40,046 nucleotides of DNA, taken from NCBI GenBank assembly GCA_024641965.1, contig JAHECC010000002.1, positions 1 to 40,046 on the forward strand, in the 5' to 3' direction. A program made the position numbers and the translations under genes. This document shows positions 8,069 to 31,014 of this stretch, in pieces. Position 1 is the stretch's first letter; every line of letters begins with the position of its first letter. The notes below the pieces were generated by a model, which saw nothing but the letters and a program-made list of their open reading frames with translations, was not told the DNA's origin and did no database searches. This DNA is from Rubrivivax sp. (lineage in GTDB: Bacteria > Pseudomonadota > Gammaproteobacteria > Burkholderiales > Burkholderiaceae_C).

Positions 8069-8799
8069 TTCACCGCCGGATAGCCGCTCATCAGGGCCTC
8101 GATCGACTCCTTGGCCGGGCCTGCCTCGCGCAGGTCGCCGAAGCCGCGCTGCAACTTGTTGAACCAGACCACATCGCCATTGCGAAGGTCGACCAGCGAC
8201 GCATAGCCCACCTGGACGCCGCCGCCGAGCGCCACGTGGCCCAGCGACAGAATGGCAACCGCCACGATGGCGGCCACGCGTTCCTGGCTGGCGTAGCTGT
8301 CGCGCACCCAGAAGAACAGCGCAAAGTCGGCGCCGGTCTTGTCACGCAACGCCTGCATGGCATTGCCGAAACTCCAGTTCAGTTGTCCGGCCTTGGTGGG
8401 CAGTTCCCACATCGGCCCGCCAAAGTGATGCAGCGCAATCGACTGTGCGACCGCAGCCTGCAAGGCCACCAGTTCGGCGAACTCATCGGCCTGCTCCGCG
8501 GTGATCGAAACGACCGCGACGCGCGCCTGCTCCTGGCGTGCGCGGATGGCCTCGTTCATGTGCTGCAAGGCGCCTTCGGTCCAGTCGGCCCTGGGCTCGG
8601 GGATGCCGCCGGCACTGAGTGAGTACAACTCCACGTCGATCGGCATCAGCAGCAACTTGTCGCTCACCCGCATGGAGATGAATCCCGGTGCGAGGTTTCT
8701 TGACTGCGCCACCGGCGCCGCTGCGCCCGACTGCGCTGTTGCGCCAGCAACTGCCAGCAGGAAGAAAGCCGCGAGGGCAAGGCGAAGTGTGCTCAGCAT
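8065..8799 (-). CDS. exported protein of unknown function, first gene of envelope trio
   Basis: A 244-residue protein with a cleavable signal peptide (hydrophobic from about 5 to 22, probable cut after ATA or AQS). The mature part has alternating hydrophobic strands and a glycine-rich hydrophobic segment (AILSLGHVALGGGVQVGYASLVDLRNGDVVWFN). That pattern, a strand reporting a lipoprotein-like DLRNGDVVWF motif, recalls CsgG/GNA1162-like envelope proteins, but I cannot assign the family. An in-frame ATG exists at 8916. The ATG at 8799 is preferred because GGGAGAGA precedes it and it places the signal peptide at the N-terminus. Its stop overlaps the start of the M48 peptidase gene. Confidence 0.75.
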   Translation of the reverse strand: MLSTLRLALAAFFLLAVAGATAQSGAAAPVAQSRNLAPGFISMRVSDKLLLMPIDVELYSLSAGGIPEPRADWTEGALQHMNEAIRARQEQARVAVVSITAEQADEFAELVALQAAVAQSIALHHFGGPMWELPTKAGQLNWSFGNAMQALRDKTGADFALFFWVRDSYASQERVAAIVAVAILSLGHVALGGGVQVGYASLVDLRNGDVVWFNKLQRGFGDLREAGPAKESIEALMSGYPAVK

Positions 8800-8966: not shown

Positions 8967-11210
8967 TCAGTGCCGAGCATCAAGGTCGGCCACCAGCACC
9001 GTGCAGACGATGCCGGCACGGCCGTTCTCGGCCCACTGCACGCTGCCGCCGAGCAGCTTGACGCGCTTGCGCACGCCGCCCAGGCCGAGGCCGTGCGCCC
9101 AACCGCTCGGGTCGCGGCCGATGCCGTCGTCTGCCAGGGTCAGGCGCAGGCGGCGGCCCTGCAGCGTGGCGACGACCTCGACGTGCATGGCGCAGGAATG
9201 CTGGATCGCGTTGCTGACCAGCTCGCGCAGCACGCGCGTCAGCGCAGACCACTGCGCCACGCTGAGCACGATGTCGCGATCGAACTGGAAGGTCCAGCTG
9301 AGCTCGATCTGCGCTGCCGCAAGACGCTGTGTAATGTCGGCCTTCCACTCCGCTGTGGCATGCGACAGACGCTGTTCGTTAGCGGCCAGCCCGCGCGTCA
9401 GCGTCTTCAGGTCCTTCAGCGTGTGCCGCAGGTAGTCCTCGATGTCCGGCGACGGAGCTTTGTACATCAGCGTCAGCAGCCGCGCGCCGATGTCGTCGTG
9501 CAGGTCCTGGGCGATGCGCGCGCGCTCCTCGTAGCGCCCGCGCTCGACGGCCATGTCGTAGGCCACGGCCCGCCGCAACTGTTCGACGACGCGATCGGTC
9601 AGTCTGGCGTCGTCGCGCGAGAACATTCGCTTACCGCCTGCGGCAAAGCGCAACAGGATCGCCATGTCGATCGGCGCGCCCTGGGCGGCATCGATTGTCG
9701 GCGCCGGCACCATCAGGGCCGAACCGCTTCCGAGAACGCGTGAACGATCGGCGCGCTGCTCAAGCATATGCACCTGCAGCGGTTCGAACAAGTCGCGCAG
9801 CAGCCGCGAGAGCTGTTGGGCGCTTTCGAGTGGTCGCGCCTCGACTTCGCGCAGCACCAGGTGCAACTTCTCGAACATGCGCTCAAGGCCGGGCATCTGC
9901 TGACCGCTCATTGGCGCCAGCAACCAGCTGCGTGCACCGGCATAGACCGCCAGCGAGAAGAACACGGCCACCGATAGCGACACGACCGGTGCCAAGGAAA
10001 AGACGGCGACGAAGAACAGGTCGAGCGCTATGGCGACGGCGCAGGTCCCGGTCAGCATCGCCAGCTCGCGCATCAGCGGCCGCGCACGCGAGAAAGTGGG
10101 CAGCAGCAGCGTCAATGTGGCCAGGAAGAGGTACCAGATCACCGAGCCGAAAGCCACGTCGCGCAGCGAGAGCGTTCCCTGGCCGCTGGCTACCACCACG
10201 GCCACGCTGAGCAGCAACAAGGTGGCCGTCGCAGCGCTGGCCAGGCGGCGCATCAACACCGCGAAGGGATTCGGCTCGATCCGGTACGACCACGACATCA
10301 ACCCGATGGTCAATGCACCGCATCCGACCATGCCGGCCTGGGTCCATGCCCAGCTGCCCGGAAGCCGGTCCGCCGCGGACAACGACAGCAGCACCATGCA
10401 GGCCATCCACGTGAGCGCTGCGATCCAACGACCGCCTGGAAGACGCAGCGGCTGCAGCGTCGCCAATTGGACCATCGCGGCGCCACTGAACAGGTCGAAG
10501 GTCATGCGCGCCAACAGACTGTGTTCGACGAATCCCGGGGGCAGCCCCAGGCCGGGCACAGTCTCGGTGCCGATGGCCAGCATGCTCCCAGCCTGACACA
10601 GCGCGATGACGAGATAGGGCAGGTTCTGGCCGTGCGGATGGGCCAGCACCACCGCCGCTCCGGCCATGACCAGCGAAAGTGCCAGGCCGGCGCACAGCCA
10701 GAAGACCGCCCCCAATCCGCCCAGGCCGCGCGATGCAGGGCTGATGCGCACTTGCCGGTCGGCGTCGAAGTGCAGCGTCACCGGGCCTTGGCTCAGCATC
10801 GACGTCAGGCGCTGCTGCGCCTCGATCAGCTGCAAGCGTCGTTCGTCGTCCACGGTCCAGCGTGGCGAACGTTGCAGCAATAAATCGTTTGCCACAAGTG
10901 TTTGGCCGCCGGCGCCGCTGACTTTGTCCAGGTGCGCACTGACCAAAGCACGCAATGTTGGCTGGCGGCTGGAGGCCAGTTCGATGTCGCCGTCGCGTTC
11001 TCGCAGCCAGGATGCATCGATGTAGGGCGTGGTGACCAGCGCGGCCAGCACCGTTGCGAACAGCAGCAACGCCACGATCGCCACCGGGGGGAGTCCCAGG
11101 CGCAGGCGACGCAGTCGGCGTTCTCGCGAAGCGCTGCGCTGTGGTGTCTGCGGAGGCATGTCGACCGGCATCCCCGTCAACGGCGCCATGGAGGCGTGGC
11201 GTGACGCCAT
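8967..11210 (-). CDS. polytopic sensor histidine kinase, HisKA_3 type
   Basis: A 747-residue membrane sensor kinase. One transmembrane helix near residue 45 is followed by an extracytoplasmic loop of about 110 residues. A block of roughly eight hydrophobic helices follows (about 165-425), then a GAF-like linker, a HisKA_3 phosphoacceptor helix with the His in AQDLHDDIGARLL, and an ATPase domain with N-box ELVSNAIQHS, DDGIGRD and GLGLGGVRKR. This arrangement is typical of NarX/ComP-like kinases that pair with LuxR-type regulators, and such a regulator gene lies 52 bases upstream. The signal is unknown; the helical block could itself be the sensor. The start at 11210 is uncertain, with in-frame ATGs 7 and 13 codons further in. 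Confidence 0.9.
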   Translation of the reverse strand: MASRHASMAPLTGMPVDMPPQTPQRSASRERRLRRLRLGLPPVAIVALLLFATVLAALVTTPYIDASWLRERDGDIELASSRQPTLRALVSAHLDKVSGAGGQTLVANDLLLQRSPRWTVDDERRLQLIEAQQRLTSMLSQGPVTLHFDADRQVRISPASRGLGGLGAVFWLCAGLALSLVMAGAAVVLAHPHGQNLPYLVIALCQAGSMLAIGTETVPGLGLPPGFVEHSLLARMTFDLFSGAAMVQLATLQPLRLPGGRWIAALTWMACMVLLSLSAADRLPGSWAWTQAGMVGCGALTIGLMSWSYRIEPNPFAVLMRRLASAATATLLLLSVAVVVASGQGTLSLRDVAFGSVIWYLFLATLTLLLPTFSRARPLMRELAMLTGTCAVAIALDLFFVAVFSLAPVVSLSVAVFFSLAVYAGARSWLLAPMSGQQMPGLERMFEKLHLVLREVEARPLESAQQLSRLLRDLFEPLQVHMLEQRADRSRVLGSGSALMVPAPTIDAAQGAPIDMAILLRFAAGGKRMFSRDDARLTDRVVEQLRRAVAYDMAVERGRYEERARIAQDLHDDIGARLLTLMYKAPSPDIEDYLRHTLKDLKTLTRGLAANEQRLSHATAEWKADITQRLAAAQIELSWTFQFDRDIVLSVAQWSALTRVLRELVSNAIQHSCAMHVEVVATLQGRRLRLTLADDGIGRDPSGWAHGLGLGGVRKRVKLLGGSVQWAENGRAGIVCTVLVADLDARH

Positions 11211-22642: not shown

Positions 22643-24019
22643 ATGACGACGAGCGAATGGTTGACGGTCGAATCACTCGACCTGGACGCGCAGGGCGTGG
22701 CGCGCAAGAGCGACGGCAAGGTGGTGTTCATCGAGGGCGCGCTGCCCGGCGAGGAGGTCACCTGCAGCGCGGGCAAGCGCAAGAACAACTGGGAGCAGGG
22801 CACGATGACGGCGCTGCGGCGCGAGAGCGCGCAGCGCGTGCGCCCGGGTTGCCCGCACTTCGGCCTGCACGCCGGGGCCTGCGGCGGCTGCAAGATGCAG
22901 CATCTGCACGCGGCAGCGCAGGTGGCGGTGAAGCAGCGCGTGCTCGAGGACCAGCTGTGGCACCTGGCCAAGGTGAAGCCGGAGATCGTGCTGCGGCCGA
23001 TCGAAGGGCCGGCCTGGGGCTACCGTCATCGCGCGCGGCTGTCTGTGCGCCATGTGGCGAAGAAGGGGACCGTGCTGATCGGCTTTCACGAACGCAAGTC
23101 GCGTTACGTCGCCGACATGCAGGTCTGTCCGGTGCTGCCCGCCGCGGTGAGCGCGCTGCTGATGCCGCTGCGCGAACTGATCGGCGCAATGGAGCAGCGC
23201 GACCGCCTGCCGCAGATCGAACTGGCCTGCGGCGACGTGGTCACGGCGTTGGTGCTGCGCCACCTGGAGCCGCTGAGCCAGGCCGACCTGGCGCGGCTGC
23301 GCGAGTTCGCCACGCGCCACGCGGTGCAATGGTGGCTGCAGCCCAAGGGGCCCGACAGCGTGGTGCGGCTGGACGGCGACGACCGCGAACTGGATTACGC
23401 ACTGCCTGAGTTCGGGTTGCGCCTGCCTTTCCGGCCCACCGATTTCACGCAAGTGAATGCGGCCATCAACCGAGTGCTCGTCGGACGTGCATTGCGCTTG
23501 CTGGACCCGCAGCCTGCCGAACGTGTGATCGACTGGTTCTGTGGCCTCGGCAACTTCAGCCTGCCGCTGGCCACACGTGCCGGAGCGGTACTGGGCATCG
23601 AGGGCAGCGCGGTGCTGGTGCAGCGCGCCGGCGAGAACGCGGCCCGGAACAGTCTGGCGCAAAAGGCCAGCTTCCTACAGCGCGATCTGTTCGAGCTTTC
23701 GGCCGATGACCTGGTCGCACTCGGCGGGGCCGACCGGTGGCTGATCGATCCGCCGCGCGAAGGCGCCTTCGCGCTGGCCAAGGCGGTGGCCGAACTGCAT
23801 GCGCAGCCGCGGGCAGGGTGGTTGCCGCCGCGGCGCATCGTCTATGTCAGCTGCAACCCGGCGACGCTGGCACGCGATGCCGGACTGCTGGTGCATCAGG
23901 CCGGCTATCGCTGCAGCCATGCCGGCGTGGTCAACATGTTTGCGCACACCGCGCATGTCGAGAGCCTGGCGGTGTTCGATCTGCAGGCGGCGGACCTGAC
24001 GGGCATGCGCCAAGGGTAA
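22643..24019 (+). CDS. rlmD: 23S rRNA (uracil-1939-C5)-methyltransferase RlmD
   Basis: A 458-residue rRNA methyltransferase. The N-terminal TRAM domain (to about 60) is followed by an iron-sulfur cluster set: Cys70, Cys80 and Cys83 in [14 protein letters not shown], with a fourth Cys in MQVCPVLP near 160. The SAM-binding motif is [14 protein letters not shown], then DPPREGA, and the nucleophile Cys is in [12 protein letters not shown]. This set fits RlmD (RumA) and its paralogue RlmC less well, because of the TRAM domain and length. The gene stands alone between the liv terminator and the cupin gene. Confidence 0.93.
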
Positions 24020-24037
24020 GTCACAGGTGCGCAGGTA

Positions 24038-24055
24038 GTCACGGTCGTTACTATC
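24038..24055 (+). promoter_or_regulatory. predicted MarR operator upstream of the cupin gene
   Basis: GTCACGGTCGTTACTATC contains the imperfect palindrome GTCACG-GT-CGTTAC. Seventeen of its 18 bases recur in the same orientation at 30218-30201, upstream of the dehydrogenase/TRAP/marR operon. It ends 26 bases before the cupin ATG and includes TACTAT, a possible -10 box, so a bound repressor would block the promoter. The assignment to the local MarR protein is inference. Confidence 0.7.
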
Positions 24056-24081
24056 TGCGCCAGACGAACTCGACGACCCGG

Positions 24082-24891
24082 ATGCAAGCGGCCTACACCT
24101 ACGAACCCGGCGCGCGGGTGCACATCTTCGACGCACGTGATCTGCCCTGGCAGGACACCAGCGAGCCCGGACTGCGGCTCAAGCCGGTGCGCTATGACGA
24201 CGCCGCCGGCCACTATCTCGGCCTCGTTGGCTTCGCACCGCTGACGCGCAGCGGATTGCACCAGCACCAGGGAGTGGCGACCAGCTTCATCATCGACGGG
24301 AGCCTTTGCGACCATGCCGGCGAGGTGGGCCTGCACCAGGCGGGCATCAACCTGGCGGGTGCGACGCATGACGCGGTGTCCTACCAGAACACCCTGCTCG
24401 TGTCCCGGCTCGAAGGCCCGGTGCTCTACGCTTTCGAGCGCGGCGACGTCAGCGGGTTGCATGCCGGCTCGCGGCTGGCGGCCTTCGACAATCCGGCACC
24501 CGAGGTGTCACCGGACATCAACGTCAATGTGGATGCGTTGAACGCGCAGCAGACCGGCATCGAGCGGGTGCGCCGCCAGACGATCTTCGACTATGCCGGC
24601 ACCGGCAGCGCACACCGCTTCGTGCAGCTGGCGCTGGCGCCGGGCGCCGAATGCCCGGCCTGGCGCTGTACGCACCTGAGCGAGTTCTGGATTCGCGGCG
24701 GGCTGCTGCAGATCGATGGACGCACTGCGCATGCGAACTGCTTCGTGATCATCGAACCGGGCGCCACCGTTCGCATGGCCTCGCCTTTCGGTGCCTTGCT
24801 GCTGGCCTGGGCCGAAGGCCCGGAAGCCTGGCTGGACGAGGCGGCGGTCGGCCGCGCACGCGCGCAGCGCCTAAGCCTGTTCGGCTTCTGA
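24082..24891 (+). CDS. two-lobed cupin protein of the ChrR-like type
   Basis: A 269-residue cytoplasmic protein without a signal peptide. The first lobe (about 25-115) has His60, His62 and a late His96 in the GLHQHQG...GATHDA pattern, but the usual glutamate of the first cupin motif is replaced. The second lobe (about 165-255) keeps the order WRCTHLSEFWIRGG (His198, Glu201) but lacks the last histidine. Each half therefore has an incomplete metal site. Cupins of this kind include diketone and hydroxyacetophenone cleaving dioxygenases and the ChrR anti-sigma partner. The frame is open far upstream, but the ATG at 24082 gives the family-like start. It meets marR tail to tail with a 21-base overlap. 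Confidence 0.75.
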   Translation: MQAAYTYEPGARVHIFDARDLPWQDTSEPGLRLKPVRYDDAAGHYLGLVGFAPLTRSGLHQHQGVATSFIIDGSLCDHAGEVGLHQAGINLAGATHDAVSYQNTLLVSRLEGPVLYAFERGDVSGLHAGSRLAAFDNPAPEVSPDINVNVDALNAQQTGIERVRRQTIFDYAGTGSAHRFVQLALAPGAECPAWRCTHLSEFWIRGGLLQIDGRTAHANCFVIIEPGATVRMASPFGALLLAWAEGPEAWLDEAAVGRARAQRLSLFGF

Positions 24892-25338
24892 CAGCGCTGC
24901 GATCAGGCTGTCGACGGTGCGCTCCATCTGCTGCAGGTCGGCTGCCGCGACCTTGCCGAAGAGCTGTGTCTCGCGCGACCGGGCGTGCATGCCGATGGTC
25001 TTGAACAGCGCCAAACCAGCCGGGTTCAGCCACAACAACGTTCGCCGCGCGTCGGCGGCATCGGGTTGCCTGATCAGCCGCTGATGGCGGCTGAGCGCCG
25101 TCACCGCACGGCTGATGCTCATCTTGTCCAGCCCGGTGATGTCGGCCAGGTCGCGCGCCGCCACACCGGGATGGCTGGCCAGCACCACCATCACGCGCCA
25201 CTCGTTCAACGACACCTGGTGCTTGCGCGCCAGCGTCTCGGTGAAGGGGCGCGCGGTCAGGTTGACCACGCGCACCAGCTTGAAGAACAGCGAACTGTCG
25301 ATCGGCAGCGCGGCCGCTTCGCGCCGGGCTAGTTTCAC
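24871..25338 (-). CDS. MarR-family transcriptional regulator
   Basis: A 155-residue winged-helix regulator. The DNA-binding region runs from about 45 to 105: LNEWRVMVVLASHPG, the helix-turn-helix ARDLADITGLDKMSISRAVTAL with recognition helix at about 71-85, and the wing (DAADARRT, 93-100). N- and C-terminal helices would form the dimer. The frame is open upstream, but the GTG at 25338 forms a GTGA overlap with the stop of the TRAP binding-protein gene, matching the coupling seen at dctQ. It is the last gene of the operon and probably represses both the operon and the convergent cupin gene through the two matching 18-base sites. Confidence 0.9.
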   Translation of the reverse strand: MKLARREAAALPIDSSLFFKLVRVVNLTARPFTETLARKHQVSLNEWRVMVVLASHPGVAARDLADITGLDKMSISRAVTALSRHQRLIRQPDAADARRTLLWLNPAGLALFKTIGMHARSRETQLFGKVAAADLQQMERTVDSLIAALSEAEQA

Positions 25339-26363
25339 GCCTTGCGCGATTTCTCGACCACGACTTCGATCTTGCTGACCAGCGCGGCGTTGGTCTGCAC
25401 CTTCCAGCGCGAGTAAACGCGCCGGCAGGCAATGCGCCACTGCTCGGCTTCTGCGGGCGTGGGGATGTGCACGTCCACGCCCAGCGCGCGCACCGCTGCC
25501 ACGTCTTCGTTGAAGAGCGTGCGCACCAGTGCGATCTGCTGCTTGGCGGCGTCCTGCGCGGCCTCGCGCACGATCTTCTGGTCGGCCGGCGTCCACGAGG
25601 CCCACACCGGGCCGGCAATGGCGAACAGCAGGATGTCGTTGGAGTAGTTCCACTTGGTCACGTACTTCTGGCCCAGCGTCTGGATCTTCGCCTTCAGGAA
25701 GACCTCGAGCGGATTTTCCTGCGCATCCACCGCGCCCGAGGCCAGCGCGGGCTGCGCGTCGGCCCAGCTCATGAAGGTCGGGTTGGCGCCCATGCCGCTC
25801 ATGATCTCGCCGTACATCGGGCTGCCGACCACGCGCACCTTGATGCCGCTCAGATCATCGGGCTTGATCAGCGGCCGCTTGGAGTTGCTGATCTGGCGGT
25901 AGCCGGTTTCGCCCATCGACAGCGGCTCGGCGCCGGCCTTGCGCACCAGGTCGAAGTAGTCCTTGACCACCTCGGGGTTGTTGATGACCGCGTCGTAGGC
26001 CTTGTGGTCCGGCAGGATGAAGGGCAGGGTGAACACGCCCAGTTGCGGAACCGTGCCCGACCAGTTGATCGGCGCGCCGCACAGCACGTCGATGATGCCC
26101 TGGCGCATGGCCGAGAACTCACGGTCCTGCTGCCCCTGCACCAGGCTGGCACCGGGGTACTGCTTGATGTTGATGCGCCCGTTGGTGCGCTCGCGCACCA
26201 GCGTCAGGAAGATCTCGCCGCCCTTGCCCCAGGCAAAGGCTGGCGGCACCACGGTGCTCATCTTGTACTCGGCCTTGTACGCGGTTTGCGCGAAGGCGAA
26301 GCGCGGAATGCCCAGCGTGGCGGCGCTGCCGCCGGCGAACTTGATCAGGTCACGACGTTGCAT
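25335..26363 (-). CDS. dctP: TRAP transporter solute-binding protein DctP
   Basis: A 342-residue periplasmic binding protein. The N-terminus MQRRDLIKFAGGSAATLGIP has a twin arginine followed by LIKF, so Tat export is likely, with a cut near FAQ. The middle segment KVRVVGSPMYGEIMSGMGANP includes the Arg that clamps a carboxylate in most DctP proteins, and VDAQENPLEVF is the usual later motif. It delivers an organic acid to the DctQM membrane part. The frame is open upstream into dctM, but the ATG at 26363 is the only one that gives a signal peptide. The ligand is unknown. Confidence 0.93.
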   Translation of the reverse strand: MQRRDLIKFAGGSAATLGIPRFAFAQTAYKAEYKMSTVVPPAFAWGKGGEIFLTLVRERTNGRINIKQYPGASLVQGQQDREFSAMRQGIIDVLCGAPINWSGTVPQLGVFTLPFILPDHKAYDAVINNPEVVKDYFDLVRKAGAEPLSMGETGYRQISNSKRPLIKPDDLSGIKVRVVGSPMYGEIMSGMGANPTFMSWADAQPALASGAVDAQENPLEVFLKAKIQTLGQKYVTKWNYSNDILLFAIAGPVWASWTPADQKIVREAAQDAAKQQIALVRTLFNEDVAAVRALGVDVHIPTPAEAEQWRIACRRVYSRWKVQTNAALVSKIEVVVEKSRKA

Positions 26364-26398
26364 GCTTGTCTCCTTGTTGACGTTGATGGAATGAATGC

Positions 26399-27697
26399 TC
26401 AGTAACCGAGCACGTGCGGCAGCCACAGTGCGATCTGCGGCATCAGCGCGACGGCAATCGCGGCGAGCGTGAAGCTGGCCACCAGCCAGCTGACGTGAGG
26501 GATGGTCGTTTCGATGCGCACCTGCGCCAGCCGGCACGACACCATCAGGTTCACCGCCAGCGGCGGCGTGAACTGGCCGATGGCAATGACCATCGTCAGC
26601 AGCACACCGAACCATACCGGGTCCCATTTGAAGGCCAGCATCAGTGGGTACAGCAGCGGCAGGAAGATCAGGAAGATCGATACACCGTCGAGGAACATGC
26701 CCACCACCAGCAGAAGCGCCAGCAGCACCAGCAGCGCGCCTGCGCTGCCGATGCCGCTGCTGCGCACGGCGTGCACCAGGGGATCGGCCAGACCCAGCGT
26801 GTTCACCGAATAGGCGAAGATACCGGCCAGCGCCATGACCACCATGATCACCGCCGAGGTCTCGGTGGCCACGCGGAAGATGTCGTATAGATCGCCCCAG
26901 CCCATGCTGCGGTGCACGACCATGCCGACGAACAGTCCGTAGGCCGCAGCCACTGCGGCGGCTTCGGTGGGTGTGAACCAGCCCACGCGCATGCCGCCGA
27001 GGATCAGCACCGGCGCGGCCAGGCCCCACGAGGAGCGGCGCAGGCTGGCCCAGAAGGGCGGGCGCGGCAGGTCGCACTCCAGCGTGCCGTAGCCGTGGCG
27101 CCGCGACAGCCAAACGGCGGGCACGATCAGCGCCAGCCCGGCCAGCAGGCCGGGAAACATGCCGGCAGCAAACAGCGCCGGCACCGACGCGCCAGGCACC
27201 GACACGCTGTAGACGACGAAAGCGATCGACGGCGGAATGAGGATGTCGATGGCCGCGGCGGCACCGACGACGCTGGCCGAGAAAGGCGTCGGGTAGCCGG
27301 CTCGCGCCATGGCCACGATCATCACACCACCCACGGCAGCGGCGGTGGCTGGGCCCGAGCCCGAGATGCCGCCCAGCAGCATCGCCACCAGCACCGCCAC
27401 CATCGGCAACATGCCGGCCGAGCGGCCGACGCAAGCCACGGCAAAGTCGACCAGCCGCTGGGCCACACCGGACCGCTCGAAGATGGCGCCGACCAGCACG
27501 AACATCGGCAACGCCAGCAATGGATACTTGGCGATGCCGGCCTGCATGTTCTGCGGCGCAGCCAGCAGGCCCCACCACTGGGAATCAGTATTCGCCCAGG
27601 CGATCGCCACGACGCCGCCCAAGCCGAGCGCCGCGCCGATGGGCACGCCGGCGAGCATCAGCGCGATGAACATCATGAACAGCGTGAAGCCGATCAT
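26399..27697 (-). CDS. dctM: TRAP transporter large membrane subunit DctM
   Basis: A 432-residue integral membrane protein with about 12 hydrophobic segments, the sodium-driven channel of the TRAP importer. The segments GGISGSGPATAAAVGGVMI and AAAAIDILIPPSIAFVVYSV are family landmarks that line the ion and substrate sites. The ATG at 27697 overlaps the dctQ stop (ATGA). The gap to dctP is 35 bases. Confidence 0.94.
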   Translation of the reverse strand: MIGFTLFMMFIALMLAGVPIGAALGLGGVVAIAWANTDSQWWGLLAAPQNMQAGIAKYPLLALPMFVLVGAIFERSGVAQRLVDFAVACVGRSAGMLPMVAVLVAMLLGGISGSGPATAAAVGGVMIVAMARAGYPTPFSASVVGAAAAIDILIPPSIAFVVYSVSVPGASVPALFAAGMFPGLLAGLALIVPAVWLSRRHGYGTLECDLPRPPFWASLRRSSWGLAAPVLILGGMRVGWFTPTEAAAVAAAYGLFVGMVVHRSMGWGDLYDIFRVATETSAVIMVVMALAGIFAYSVNTLGLADPLVHAVRSSGIGSAGALLVLLALLLVVGMFLDGVSIFLIFLPLLYPLMLAFKWDPVWFGVLLTMVIAIGQFTPPLAVNLMVSCRLAQVRIETTIPHVSWLVASFTLAAIAVALMPQIALWLPHVLGY

Positions 27698-28182
27698 GCT
27701 TCGCTACCCGCGTCTGCCCGCGCCGCGCTCCAGGCCACACCTGCTGAACGCAAGGTGATGGCGGCGCACAGCAACGGGGAGAAGGCAGTGAACCACCAGC
27801 GCGGCACGCCCATGCCCATCGAGGTCTCGGCGTAACGGATCTCGTCGGCCACGACGCGGCCGAAGAGCACGGTCAGCAGCGCGAACAAGGCGGCCGTGGT
27901 GCACGCGGCAAACACCTTGAGGCGCTGGCGACGCAGCCGGTCACCGCCGTCGTAGAGCACCTCGATGCGGATCTGCCGGTCGCGCGCGGTGGCCGCACTG
28001 GCGCCGGCCAGCGTCATCACCACCATCAGGAAGACCGAGATCTCCTCGGTCCAGGCGAAGGACTGGTCGGTGAAGTAACGTGTCAGCACGTTGAGCAGCG
28101 TGATCAGCAGCAACAGCACCATGCAGGCCACGGCCAGCCCTTCCTCCAGCACCAGGGGCATGAGCGGGCGGTCGCGACTCAC
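27694..28182 (-). CDS. dctQ: TRAP transporter small membrane subunit DctQ
   Basis: A 162-residue protein with four hydrophobic helices (from about residue 15). It includes the motif LLLITLLNVLTRYFTDQSFAWTEEISVFLMV, typical of small TRAP subunits, with the Arg-Tyr-Phe and Trp-Thr-Glu-Glu signatures. The GTG at 28182 overlaps the stop of the E1 beta gene (GTGA); an ATG seven codons later is the alternative. A 3' overlap with dctM confirms coupling. The order dctQ-dctM-dctP differs from the common dctP-Q-M order. Confidence 0.9.
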   Translation of the reverse strand: MSRDRPLMPLVLEEGLAVACMVLLLLITLLNVLTRYFTDQSFAWTEEISVFLMVVMTLAGASAATARDRQIRIEVLYDGGDRLRRQRLKVFAACTTAALFALLTVLFGRVVADEIRYAETSMGMGVPRWWFTAFSPLLCAAITLRSAGVAWSAARADAGSEA

Positions 28183-29144
28183 GCCATCAGTTCCAGCGCC
28201 GCGCTGACGATGGCGGCAGGGCGCACGCGAGCGGCTTCTTCCAGGTTCGCCGCATACCCCACCGGTATGCGCGGGGCTCCGACGCGGCGCACGCGGCAGC
28301 CGACGGCTTCGGCCGCGCTGGCGGCAATCTCGGCGCCGAAGCCGGCGGCCTGCACCGCTTCGTGCGTGACCATCAGCCGGCCGGTGCGCGCCGCCGATTC
28401 GAACACCGCATCGCGGTCCCAAGGCCAGAGCGTGCGCAAATCAAGCAGATCGACCTGCACACCGTGTTCGGCAAGTGTGGCGGCCGCTTCCGCGGCCCAA
28501 TGCATCTGGCGCGACCAGCTCACCAGCGTGAGGTCAGCTCCCGCGCGCCAGCGGCGCGCCTGTCCCAGCCGGGTGTGTTGCGCTGGGTCGAAATCGGCAC
28601 TCATGCCCCACAGTTCCTTGTGCTCCATGTAGATCACCGGGTCACCGCAATCCAGCGCCGCGTGCAGCAGGTCGTGGTTATCCTGCGGCGTGCTTGGGCA
28701 TACCACGACCACGCCCGGTAGGTGTGCAAACCAGGATTCGAGCGATTGCGAATGCTGTGCCGCCGAAGCCGACCACATGCCGATCGGCAACCTGGCAACC
28801 AATGGCACTCGCCCCTGGCCACCGAACATGAAGCGGTTCTTGGCCGCCTGGTTGACGATCTCGTCCATTGCGCACAAGGCGAAATCGACGACGCGCATCT
28901 CCACCACCGGCTTGAGCCCGGCCAGGGCCATGCCGACACCCGCACCCATGATGGTGGCCTCGGAGATGGGCGTGTCGATGATGCGCTGTGCGCCGAAGCG
29001 CGCCTGCAGCCCCGCGTACTGGCCGAAGATGCCGCCGCGGCCGACATCTTCGCCCAGCACGACGACGCGCGAGTCGTCGGCCATGGCGCTGGCTAGCGCG
29101 GTACACGCAGCCTGGGCGTAGGTGATCGGTGCGGCGCTTTGCAT
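28179..29144 (-). CDS. 2-oxo-acid/acetoin-type dehydrogenase E1 beta subunit
   Basis: A 321-residue transketolase-like subunit. The thiamine-activating glutamate is probably Glu32 in LGEDVGRGG, followed by the phosphosubunit-like DTPISEATIMGAGVGMAL segment, and a C-terminal domain (MVTHEAVQAAGFGAEIAA). With the alpha subunit it should form an alpha2beta2 E1 that decarboxylates a 2-oxo acid or cleaves acetoin and passes the acyl group to a lipoyl E2. No E2 or E3 gene is in the window. The closest common relatives are AcoB, PdhB and BkdA2 types, which I cannot tell apart. Confidence 0.92.
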   Translation of the reverse strand: MQSAAPITYAQAACTALASAMADDSRVVVLGEDVGRGGIFGQYAGLQARFGAQRIIDTPISEATIMGAGVGMALAGLKPVVEMRVVDFALCAMDEIVNQAAKNRFMFGGQGRVPLVARLPIGMWSASAAQHSQSLESWFAHLPGVVVVCPSTPQDNHDLLHAALDCGDPVIYMEHKELWGMSADFDPAQHTRLGQARRWRAGADLTLVSWSRQMHWAAEAAATLAEHGVQVDLLDLRTLWPWDRDAVFESAARTGRLMVTHEAVQAAGFGAEIAASAAEAVGCRVRRVGAPRIPVGYAANLEEAARVRPAAIVSAALELMA

Positions 29145-29156
29145 CGGGTCTTCGAA

Positions 29157-30140
29157 TCAGTACCAGCGGCCGCCGCCGGTGTCCTGTACGTCGGTGAACG
29201 CCGTGTCGGCATCGGGCCAGGGAGCGGCCGACGCCACTTGCTGGGCATTTTCGATCTCCGCCCGGGCGGCGCGCCGCATTTCATCGAGTTCCTGCGGGTT
29301 GCCGCCACGCGCCAGCCAGGTCGCTGCGGCACGCTCGATCGGGTCGGTCAGAAGGGCGTCGGCCAACTCTGCGGGGTCGCGGTAGGTGGCCGGATCGACC
29401 GACACATGGCCCTTGAAGCGGTAGGTCACGGCATGCAGCAGACGCGGGCCGTCGCCGCCGCGCACGGCGTCGAGCAGGCGCTGTGCCAGCTCGCACACCG
29501 CCTCGACGTCGTTGCCGTCGACGGTCTGCGCGTCGACACCCAGGCTCAACGCGCGCGCCGCAGCGCCGGCGCCGGCGGTGGTCGTGGCGCTGGCCGTGGT
29601 CGCCGACCAGCGGTTGTCCTCGCATACGAAGAGCACCGGCAGCCCATAGCTGGCGGCCCAGTTCAAGGCTTCCAGGAAGGGGCCGCGATTGATGGCGCCG
29701 TCGCCGAAGAAGCAGGCCACGATATCGGACTTGCCACGCAGCTTCAGCGCATGGGCCGCACCCACGGCGATCGGCAGGCCGGCGGCGACCACGCCGTTGG
29801 CACCGAGCATGCCCACCGAGAAGTCGGCAATGTGCATCGAGCCGCCTTTGCCGCCGTTGCTGCCGCTGGCGCGGCCGTAGAGTTCGCACATCATGCGCAC
29901 CGTGTCGGCGCCCTTGGCCAGCGTGTGGCCATGACCGCGATGCGTGGATGTCAGCAGATCGCTGCGCTGCAGGTGGAAGCACACCCCAGCGGCCACCGCC
30001 TCCTGCCCTGTGGACAGGTGCAGCGGGCCGCGCACCAGTGCCTGCGGGCCGGCGCTCTGCCCGAATGCCGCTACGCCGCCCTGGCTGGCGCCTTCGGCAG
30101 CGTCCTCGAACGCGCGGATGCGTAGCATCGTGTCGAGCAA
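29157..30140 (-). CDS. 2-oxo-acid/acetoin-type dehydrogenase E1 alpha subunit
   Basis: A 327-residue thiamine-diphosphate subunit. The cofactor motif begins GDGAIN at 146-151 and closes with CEDNRW near 173-178. Other E1 alpha marks are STHRGHGHTLAKG, GKGGSMHIAD and YRFKGHVSVDPATYR. The start is uncertain. TTG at 30140 gives MLDTMLRIRAFED. The first ATG (30128) would cut into the conserved start, while the same frame continues upstream with family-like residues (RLRDLLDTML) but no ATG or GTG. It is the first gene of the dehydrogenase/TRAP/marR operon, 12 bases before the beta gene. Confidence 0.9.
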   Translation of the reverse strand: MLDTMLRIRAFEDAAEGASQGGVAAFGQSAGPQALVRGPLHLSTGQEAVAAGVCFHLQRSDLLTSTHRGHGHTLAKGADTVRMMCELYGRASGSNGGKGGSMHIADFSVGMLGANGVVAAGLPIAVGAAHALKLRGKSDIVACFFGDGAINRGPFLEALNWAASYGLPVLFVCEDNRWSATTASATTTAGAGAAARALSLGVDAQTVDGNDVEAVCELAQRLLDAVRGGDGPRLLHAVTYRFKGHVSVDPATYRDPAELADALLTDPIERAAATWLARGGNPQELDEMRRAARAEIENAQQVASAAPWPDADTAFTDVQDTGGGRWY

Positions 30141-30200
30141 GTCGCGCAGCCGCGTCTGAGTCGAAGGTTCCAGCAGGGTGTCCGTCGTGAATGCAGCGGC

Positions 30201-30218
30201 GATAGTAACGAACGTGAC
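30201..30218 (-). promoter_or_regulatory. predicted MarR operator upstream of the dehydrogenase/TRAP/marR operon
   Basis: Read on the minus strand this is GTCACGTTCGTTACTATC, identical to the site at 24038-24055 except for one base at the palindrome centre (GTCACG-TT-CGTTAC). It ends 60 bases before the TTG start of E1 alpha and contains the same TACTAT. Two such sites flanking the genes of one MarR regulator are strong circumstantial evidence for its operator. Confidence 0.7.
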
Positions 30219-30261
30219 CTTATCGTCGCGTCATGGCAAACCCTCAACGCCGCGCCCGGCC

Positions 30262-30293
30262 CAGAAAACGGAAAACGGAGCCCGAAGGCTCCG
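30262..30293 (-). terminator. rho-independent terminator of the Bax-inhibitor-like gene
   Basis: On the minus strand CGGAGCC, a TTCG tetraloop and GGCTCCG form a seven-base stem followed by TTTTCCGTTTT. It lies 26 bases after the gene and upstream of the E1 alpha operator. Confidence 0.85.
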
Positions 30294-30318
30294 CTCTTGG
30301 GTCAGGGGCGCTGCGTGC

Positions 30319-31014
30319 TCAGTCGCTGCTGCCGCCGAAGATTCCGAGCAGCGCCAGCAGGCTCTGGAACACGTTGTAGATGCTCAGGTAGACACCCAGC
30401 GTGGCGGTGATGTAGTTCGTCTCGAGGCCGTCCTTGACACGCTTCAGGTCGTGCAGAATGAAGGCCGAGAAGATGCCGATGGCCATGACCATCAGCGTGA
30501 TCATCAGCGCGCTCGACTGGATGAAGAAGTTGGCGATCATTGCCACGAGCAGCATGATCGCGCCGATGAACAGCCACTTGCCCATCGACGACAGGTCGCG
30601 CTTGATGATGCTCGACAGCGAGGCCATGCCCAGGAAGATCGCACCGGTGCCGGCAAAGGCGGTCATGATCAGGCTGGCGCCATTGCTCATGCCGAGCACT
30701 GCACCGACCAGACGCGACAGCATCAATCCCATGAAGAAGGTGAAGGCCAGCAGCACCGGGACACCGGCGGCCGAGTTCTTGGTCTTCTCGATGGCGAACA
30801 TGAAGCCGAAGGCTCCGCCCAGGAACACCATCAAGCCGATGCCCGGCGACATGGCGGCGGCGATGCCGGTGGTGACGCCAATCCATGCGCCCAGTACCGT
30901 GGGCACCATCGACAGGGCCAGCAGCCAGTAGGTATTGCGCAGGACGCGATTGCGCTGTTCGGTCAACGCGCCCGAGCCGACGTAACCGGTGGCGGTAGGC
31001 AGGCTTTGGTTCAT
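30319..31014 (-). CDS. Bax inhibitor-1 / YccA family membrane protein
   Basis: A 231-residue inner-membrane protein with seven hydrophobic helices. Family features include the N-terminal LRNTYWLLALSMVPTVLGA, the middle FFMGLMLSRLVG and the C-terminal SAFILHDLKRVKDGLETNYI with the acidic and His-Asp residues placed as in BI-1 proteins. It ends QSLLALLGIFGGSSD. Bacterial members such as YccA interact with FtsH and restrain its proteolysis, and ftsH is about 8 kb away in this window; a functional link here is inference. It has its own promoter and terminator. Confidence 0.93.
   Translation of the reverse strand: MNQSLPTATGYVGSGALTEQRNRVLRNTYWLLALSMVPTVLGAWIGVTTGIAAAMSPGIGLMVFLGGAFGFMFAIEKTKNSAAGVPVLLAFTFFMGLMLSRLVGAVLGMSNGASLIMTAFAGTGAIFLGMASLSSIIKRDLSSMGKWLFIGAIMLLVAMIANFFIQSSALMITLMVMAIGIFSAFILHDLKRVKDGLETNYITATLGVYLSIYNVFQSLLALLGIFGGSSD

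Follow-up and report, generated by a model that had tools for sequence, protein, structure and literature searches.

The window analysed here is a stretch of 40,046 nucleotides from Rubrivivax sp. (GenBank assembly GCA_024641965.1, contig JAHECC010000002.1). It holds a minus-strand operon of six genes that ends in a marR gene and, convergent to it, a cupin gene. Two nearly identical 18-base elements precede these units, and we regard it as probable, at roughly 85%, that both are operators of the MarR-family protein encoded at 24871-25338, which would repress the cupin promoter and the promoter of its own six-gene operon. The gene content proposed in the initial annotation of this DNA holds, since translation and Pfam confirm E1 alpha, E1 beta, DctQ, DctM, DctP and MarR. 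The genes and predicted operators are listed below, with operator scores in bits from a weight matrix built without the window.

24038-24055, plus strand: predicted MarR operator 1, upstream of the cupin gene, 30.3 bits
24082-24891, plus strand: cupin protein, 269 amino acids, Cupin_7/ChrR-like domain at residues 15-107
24871-25338, minus strand: MarR-family regulator, 155 amino acids, last operon gene (Pfam)
25335-26363, minus strand: DctP, TRAP solute receptor (Pfam and PDB match)
26399-27697, minus strand: DctM, TRAP large permease (Pfam)
27694-28182, minus strand: DctQ, TRAP small permease (Pfam)
28179-29144, minus strand: E1 beta, thiamine-diphosphate dehydrogenase subunit (Pfam)
29157-30188, minus strand: E1 alpha, open frame with uncertain start codon (Pfam)
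30201-30218, minus strand: predicted MarR operator 2, upstream of E1 alpha and the operon, 30.9 bits
30272-30297, minus strand: terminator-like hairpin between the upstream Bax1-I gene and the operon

The regulator carries a winged-helix MarR domain (PF12802, 39.1 bits at a cut-off of 27; PF01047, 31.7 bits at a cut-off of 24.6), and its gene overlaps the convergent cupin gene by 21 bp at the marR 3' end. The TRAP transporter is complete, with DctP, DctQ and DctM all encoded, and Pfam finds both the alpha and the beta domain of E1 enzymes of 2-oxoacid/acetoin dehydrogenase type. No E2 or E3 partner occurs among the six operon genes and the cupin gene; the rest of the genome was not searched for them. 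No ATG lies within 60 nt of operator 2, and a TTG at 30140 is one candidate start for E1 alpha. The operon probably has its own promoter, because the terminator-like hairpin separates it from the Bax1-I gene; the scanned stretch holds four such hairpins against 2.3 expected.

Two matching sites before two transcription units

The twin 18-mers, GTCACGGTCGTTACTATC at 24038-24055 on the plus strand and GTCACGTTCGTTACTATC at 30218-30201 on the minus strand, lie where the initial annotation had placed them and differ by one base. Each is oriented toward its own downstream gene, cupin or E1 alpha, and their starts are 6.2 kb apart. The palindrome GTCACG-NN-CGTTAC is indeed present in both sites, but it is imperfect by one base pair. 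A chance origin of the pair is unlikely, as had been argued: the pattern GTCACGNTCGTTACTATC with up to three mismatches has three matches in the window against 0.02 expected, the third, at 8503-8520, with three mismatches. With the matrix built without the window, the next-best place in the window reaches 4.8 bits once the other strand of the two operators is set aside. Across relatives the motif extends over about 20 bp, ATN-GTNACG-NN-CGTTAC-NAT; an exact GTAACG forms its left half in 12 of 28 sites, and an exact CGTTAC its right half in 25 of 28.

The observation that there is no third copy extends to the whole genome (4.42 Mb, 342 contigs), which has no other place at zero or one mismatch and a single further one at two mismatches, C273:12745-12762. 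Measured against the 14-position form of the motif, GTNACGNNCGTTACNAT, this place (C273:12746-12762 in G000; L003/L043:7747) has one mismatch and scores 26.7 bits. It is flanked by a PF00144 hydrolase gene and by a glgB-like gene, the latter read by eye from the letters. We do not count it as a third target, because hits with at most one mismatch away from MarR genes are no more frequent than those of a backwards control motif (11 versus 49, hand count in 15 genomes outside genus g72).

Sites and genes in related genomes

Homologues of the regulator are sparse. They were found in 16 of 250 genomes of the family (E 1e-15), in 18 of 399 genomes (E 1e-25; this sample overlaps the 250-genome set) and, counting the window's own genome, in 3 of 349 genomes sampled from the order (E 1e-15). 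The 399-genome search listed five further members of the window's genus, and none of these has this MarR. A tblastn identity of at least 50% defines 18 orthologous loci: the window, L010 (a Rubrivivax metagenome-assembled genome), L011 (an Ideonella metagenome-assembled genome), L029-L039 and L083-L086. L040, with a MarR of 40% identity, is excluded from these counts.

The sites are conserved together with the genes. An operator stands at the first promoter of the operon side in 17 of the 18 orthologous loci, and all 11 loci that carry the cupin gene have one on the cupin side as well, hence the motif at both promoters in 11 of 11, although the cupin site of L031 is weak, with three mismatches. 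This is the outcome that the initial annotation had named as support, namely conserved paired sites that move with the genes. The gene that follows the operator varies. In L010, L031, L032, L036 and L084, where no E1 genes were found in the examined stretch, it is dctQ, and in L039 the operator precedes marR itself; the 11.4 kb examined there showed neither E1 nor TRAP nor cupin genes. Neighbouring genes differ too: rlmD adjoins the cupin side in the window and in L010, whereas TctC receptor genes adjoin or lie near the cluster in L029, L031 and L039, the three other loci with scanned neighbours. Thus, the sites accompany the genes rather than a fixed genomic place. An operator before the operon that holds the regulator gene and another before a second unit, both conserved in relatives, is the arrangement of an autoregulated local regulon.

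Scoring gives the same picture. With a 20-bp weight matrix from which the group under study was left out (groups by genus, L010 treated as its own group), a listed site took first rank in 17 of 17 loci. Where both promoters exist (11 loci), the two known sites were the best two, the lowest at 20.6 bits and the next place at 8.2 bits or less; some known sites were scored here on the other strand of the same palindrome. The exact 14-position form occurs in only 10 of the 250 family genomes, all 10 of them MarR carriers, so that the motif is not widespread and the idea of a family-wide element was rejected. The backwards control motif occurs in seven of these genomes, none a MarR carrier (hand count). 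Among 20 exact-motif rows, some of which are two strands of one site, 16 are at the MarR cluster, one (G176) is found roughly 100-115 bp ahead of a second MarR gene, and three (G071) fall inside a dispersed repeat.

This repeat was followed in three genomes of one genus. Operator-like palindromes, mostly GTCACG-NN-CGTGAC, number 49, 55 and 65 matches in G071, G594 and G717, respectively (up to one mismatch, both strands, true operators included; control 1-3). The stretches examined were L074-L076, L102-L121, L085:9342 and L086:9063. In G071, 23 stretches cover the 49 matches; 20 have a GATTGC-type tail, 18 are of a short form with a hairpin and 4 of a longer variant. By eye, the copies often follow stop codons, as repetitive extragenic palindromic elements do, and they also stand behind E1 beta in L085 and L086. 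A separate palindrome, TTAGTAACTATTGATACTAA at L083:9681 (19.6-22.3 bits), lies near the marR 3' end and is not a top place in other scanned loci. Downstream of marR, two genomes of one genus carry a second E1 alpha/beta pair (L011:11411-13401; L083:9858-12199) with 33-38% identity to that of the window.

The MarR clade, promoter anatomy and competing explanations

The motif follows one type of MarR protein. DKMxxSR, located in what the MarR fold suggests is the recognition helix, is present in all 18 orthologues and also in five remote MarR genes of 33-35% identity: L041, L042 and L078 from the same family as the window, and L072 and L073 from a different family of the order, where both genomes belong to a single genus. 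All five have the operator motif in their promoter regions, with best scores of 20.7 (L041), 26.9 (L042), 30.6 (L078), 32.6 (L072) and 26.9 bits (L073). Beside these five genes no other gene of the cluster was found, the L072 and L073 stretches being only 3.4 kb long. The divergent genes are instead a glyoxalase-family protein and an FAD-binding hydroxylase-like protein in L042 and a glyoxalase-family protein in L078. MarR is therefore the shared factor, because remote MarR genes keep the operator without the rest of the cluster. Other homologues lack the motif nearby: L040, with an HPMNVSR helix, has its best place (15.0 bits) 2.3 kb away, and the L012 homologue (23% identity, other helix letters) has none near MarR. 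In G201, which has a cupin homologue (47%) and no MarR hit, no place exceeds 6.5 bits in 18 kb. By computation, the putative operator is a palindrome within 16-20 bp located in the promoters it would regulate, as is expected for the MarR family.

Two kinds of promoter element appear at the sites and are given here for the window.

24014-24023, plus strand: weak second-box copy before the cupin gene, GGGTAAGTCA, matching GGG-N4-CCC at 4 of 6 positions, read from the sequence
24049-24054, plus strand: likely -10 box TACTAT in operator 1
30207-30202, minus strand: likely -10 box TACTAT in operator 2
30234-30243, minus strand: second-box copy before operator 2 at a distance of 25 bp, GGGTTTGCCA, matching at 5 of 6 positions

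The suggestion that TACTAT serves as a -10 box gains support from TACNAT, which is well conserved only in the arm facing the gene, with A kept in 27 and T in 28 of 28 sites; in the distal arm the corresponding numbers are 12 and 19. The -10 consensus is TATAAT, with which TACNAT agrees at four of six positions. An ATG follows TACNAT at 5-7 nt in 7 of 28 sites (cupin in L010, L030, L032, L034 and L035; E1 alpha in L033 and L034) and, by eye, also before marR in L041 and L042, a spacing that suggests leaderless mRNAs. In 21 of 28 sites the second box, GGGNWWNCCC-like, stands at fixed spacing, 24 or 25 bp ahead of the operator (5 or 6 of 6 letters of GGG-N4-CCC), where a hand estimate from base composition, made with no shuffle, expects about 1 of 28. 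The stricter GGGNWWNCCC is not rich overall, since it has 38 matches in 481 kb of the loci examined against 75 expected from composition. If TACNAT is the -10 box, the GGG-N4-CCC box is centred near -42. Class II activators bind near -42, and this position suggests a possible class II activator site. In L040, GGGTTTACCC lies at position 10403, near the start of the MarR gene of 40% identity and different helix, with no GTAACG operator nearby.

The sites, their pairing, their conservation, the link to the MarR clade and the -10-like position were all computed directly, and their agreement across relatives supports the proposal that the last gene of the operon may repress both its own operon and the convergent cupin gene. 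A MarR dimer would bind ATN-GTNACG-NN-CGTTAC-NAT, the gene-side arm TACNAT doubling as the -10 box. Ligand-free MarR would block RNA polymerase at both promoters, the one before the cupin gene and the one that drives the six operon genes; blocking is the likeliest mode of repression because the gene-side TACNAT is kept and fits a -10 box. A ligand, probably an acid imported by the TRAP transporter or a product thereof, would release MarR, and therefore uptake, E1 enzyme, cupin protein and repressor would rise together. We infer binding, repression, the ligand and any activator requirement at the upstream GGG-N4-CCC box.

Several observations weigh against this reading. The sites were first picked by pattern and then scored. 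All orthologous loci belong to a single family, and several share a genus. Since the sites are located within the cluster, shared inheritance accounts for part of the agreement between motif and MarR. Six of the 16 MarR carriers have no exact motif match. L038 is an exception, with E1 genes and a MarR (52%, helix LDKMAVSR) and a degenerate site only, at 10.1 bits. Four loci without cupin gene nevertheless have a second well-scoring place (L083 19.6, L085 25.6, L086 20.5 and L037 9.5 bits). A search of 23900-30400 yielded no sigma-70 hexamer pair, and the ATG-at-6 spacing is absent from the genes of the window itself.

The missing hexamer pair would also fit a MarR that binds both sites as an activator, or as a dual regulator that remains bound. 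BhbR2 is such a MarR activator, described as staying bound with its inducer (PMC12016517). BhbR2 protects -22 to -43, whereas the operator here overlaps the -10-like TACNAT, where a bound dimer should block polymerase, and we consider activation unlikely. Comparably doubtful as a whole is a wider reading that joins several of the above observations. It supposes a two-input module with an activator at a GGG-N4-CCC box centred some 42 bp ahead of the predicted start and with MarR covering the -10 box, the mRNAs being leaderless in some species, and an operator-like palindrome that has spread in the short extragenic repeat of one genus (three genomes counted), providing dozens of decoy or recruiting sites.

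It is less probable still, and distinctly so, that a different transcription factor binds the motif and that MarR is a bystander gene, perhaps one whose product binds the GGG-N4-CCC box. That box is also conserved, in 21 of 28 sites, and in L040 the non-DKM MarR gene has GGGTTTACCC near its start. Against this, loci of DKM-helix MarR genes in which no other cluster genes were found keep the motif (L039, L041, L042, L078, L072 and L073), and the marR-side promoters of L041, L042 and L078 are by eye without a GGG-N4-CCC box at that spacing. A merely conserved promoter element, a palindrome without regulator, is hardly credible: TACNAT does look like a -10 box and belongs to the best-conserved portions of the motif, but the distal half GTNACG, outside the -10 box, is kept as well (G and T in 23 of 23 sites counted, L038 dropped), so that a bare -10 box was rejected. 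In addition, 240 of the 250 family genomes lack the exact motif.

Substrate and comparison with known systems

The only PDB match of DctP at E 1e-30 or better is 4P8B (E 7e-112, residues 2-338), described as the Ralstonia eutropha H16_A1328 receptor with bound 2-acetolactate. The cupin gene is described as oxygenase-like, and DAD and Dke1 are cupin dioxygenases that cleave diketones or ketones. The cupin protein itself has no PDB match at E 0.1, and a profile of 12 homologues matches only ChrR (E 0.036). A DctP model (AlphaFold, three-sequence alignment) had a mean pLDDT (predicted local distance difference test) of 35 and was not used. Taken together, the 4P8B match, the E1 pair and the cupin would suit a 2-hydroxy-3-oxo acid or a related ketone as substrate and inducer, a reasonable guess held with low confidence. 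A review lists 2-acetolactate among TRAP ligands, in a passage that does not name the protein (PMC5812351).

The analysis yields a sharp operator motif for a MarR subclade with the DKMxxSR helix, for which we found no published operator in the open-licence literature searched. It joins the genes for TRAP uptake, an E1-type dehydrogenase and a cupin protein in a single predicted regulon, which narrows the hunt for a common substrate, and the motif can serve to predict what further MarR genes sharing this helix control. The case also illustrates that a two-site pattern spotted by eye can withstand testing. Within the same open-licence literature, no paper on this operon or motif was found among the matches listed, which does not prove absence, and two comparative regulon papers name no such regulon in the portions available (PMC5343134; PMC6449761).

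Among known systems, HpaR (TIGR02337) is the best NCBIfam match of the window's MarR, yet at 41.8 bits it stays far below the membership cut-off of 121.2, and the assignment was rejected. AmnR of Burkholderia xenovorans LB400 resembles the MarR described here as a predicted MarR-type repressor of a catabolic operon with a palindromic operator and ACG/CGT inner letters; its predicted operator is TAG(G/T)ACGTATACGTACTA (PMC3790839). It differs in half-site spacing and letters, in the operator's place between amnR and the amn cluster, and in controlling 2-aminophenol genes. BhbR2 of Pigmentiphaga kullae H8 is likewise a MarR-family regulator of a catabolic operon; in contrast, it binds TTGATT-N5-AATCAA at -22 to -43 and activates (PMC12016517). 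The MhbR operator, ATTGTTTCACAAACTAAT, also differs from the motif found here (PMC3572157). A palindrome over promoter elements is, by the account in PMC12016517, the standard case for MarR repressors. The motif and the regulon are new as far as the searched literature goes, and the predicted local MarR control circuit is of a familiar and fairly ordinary type.

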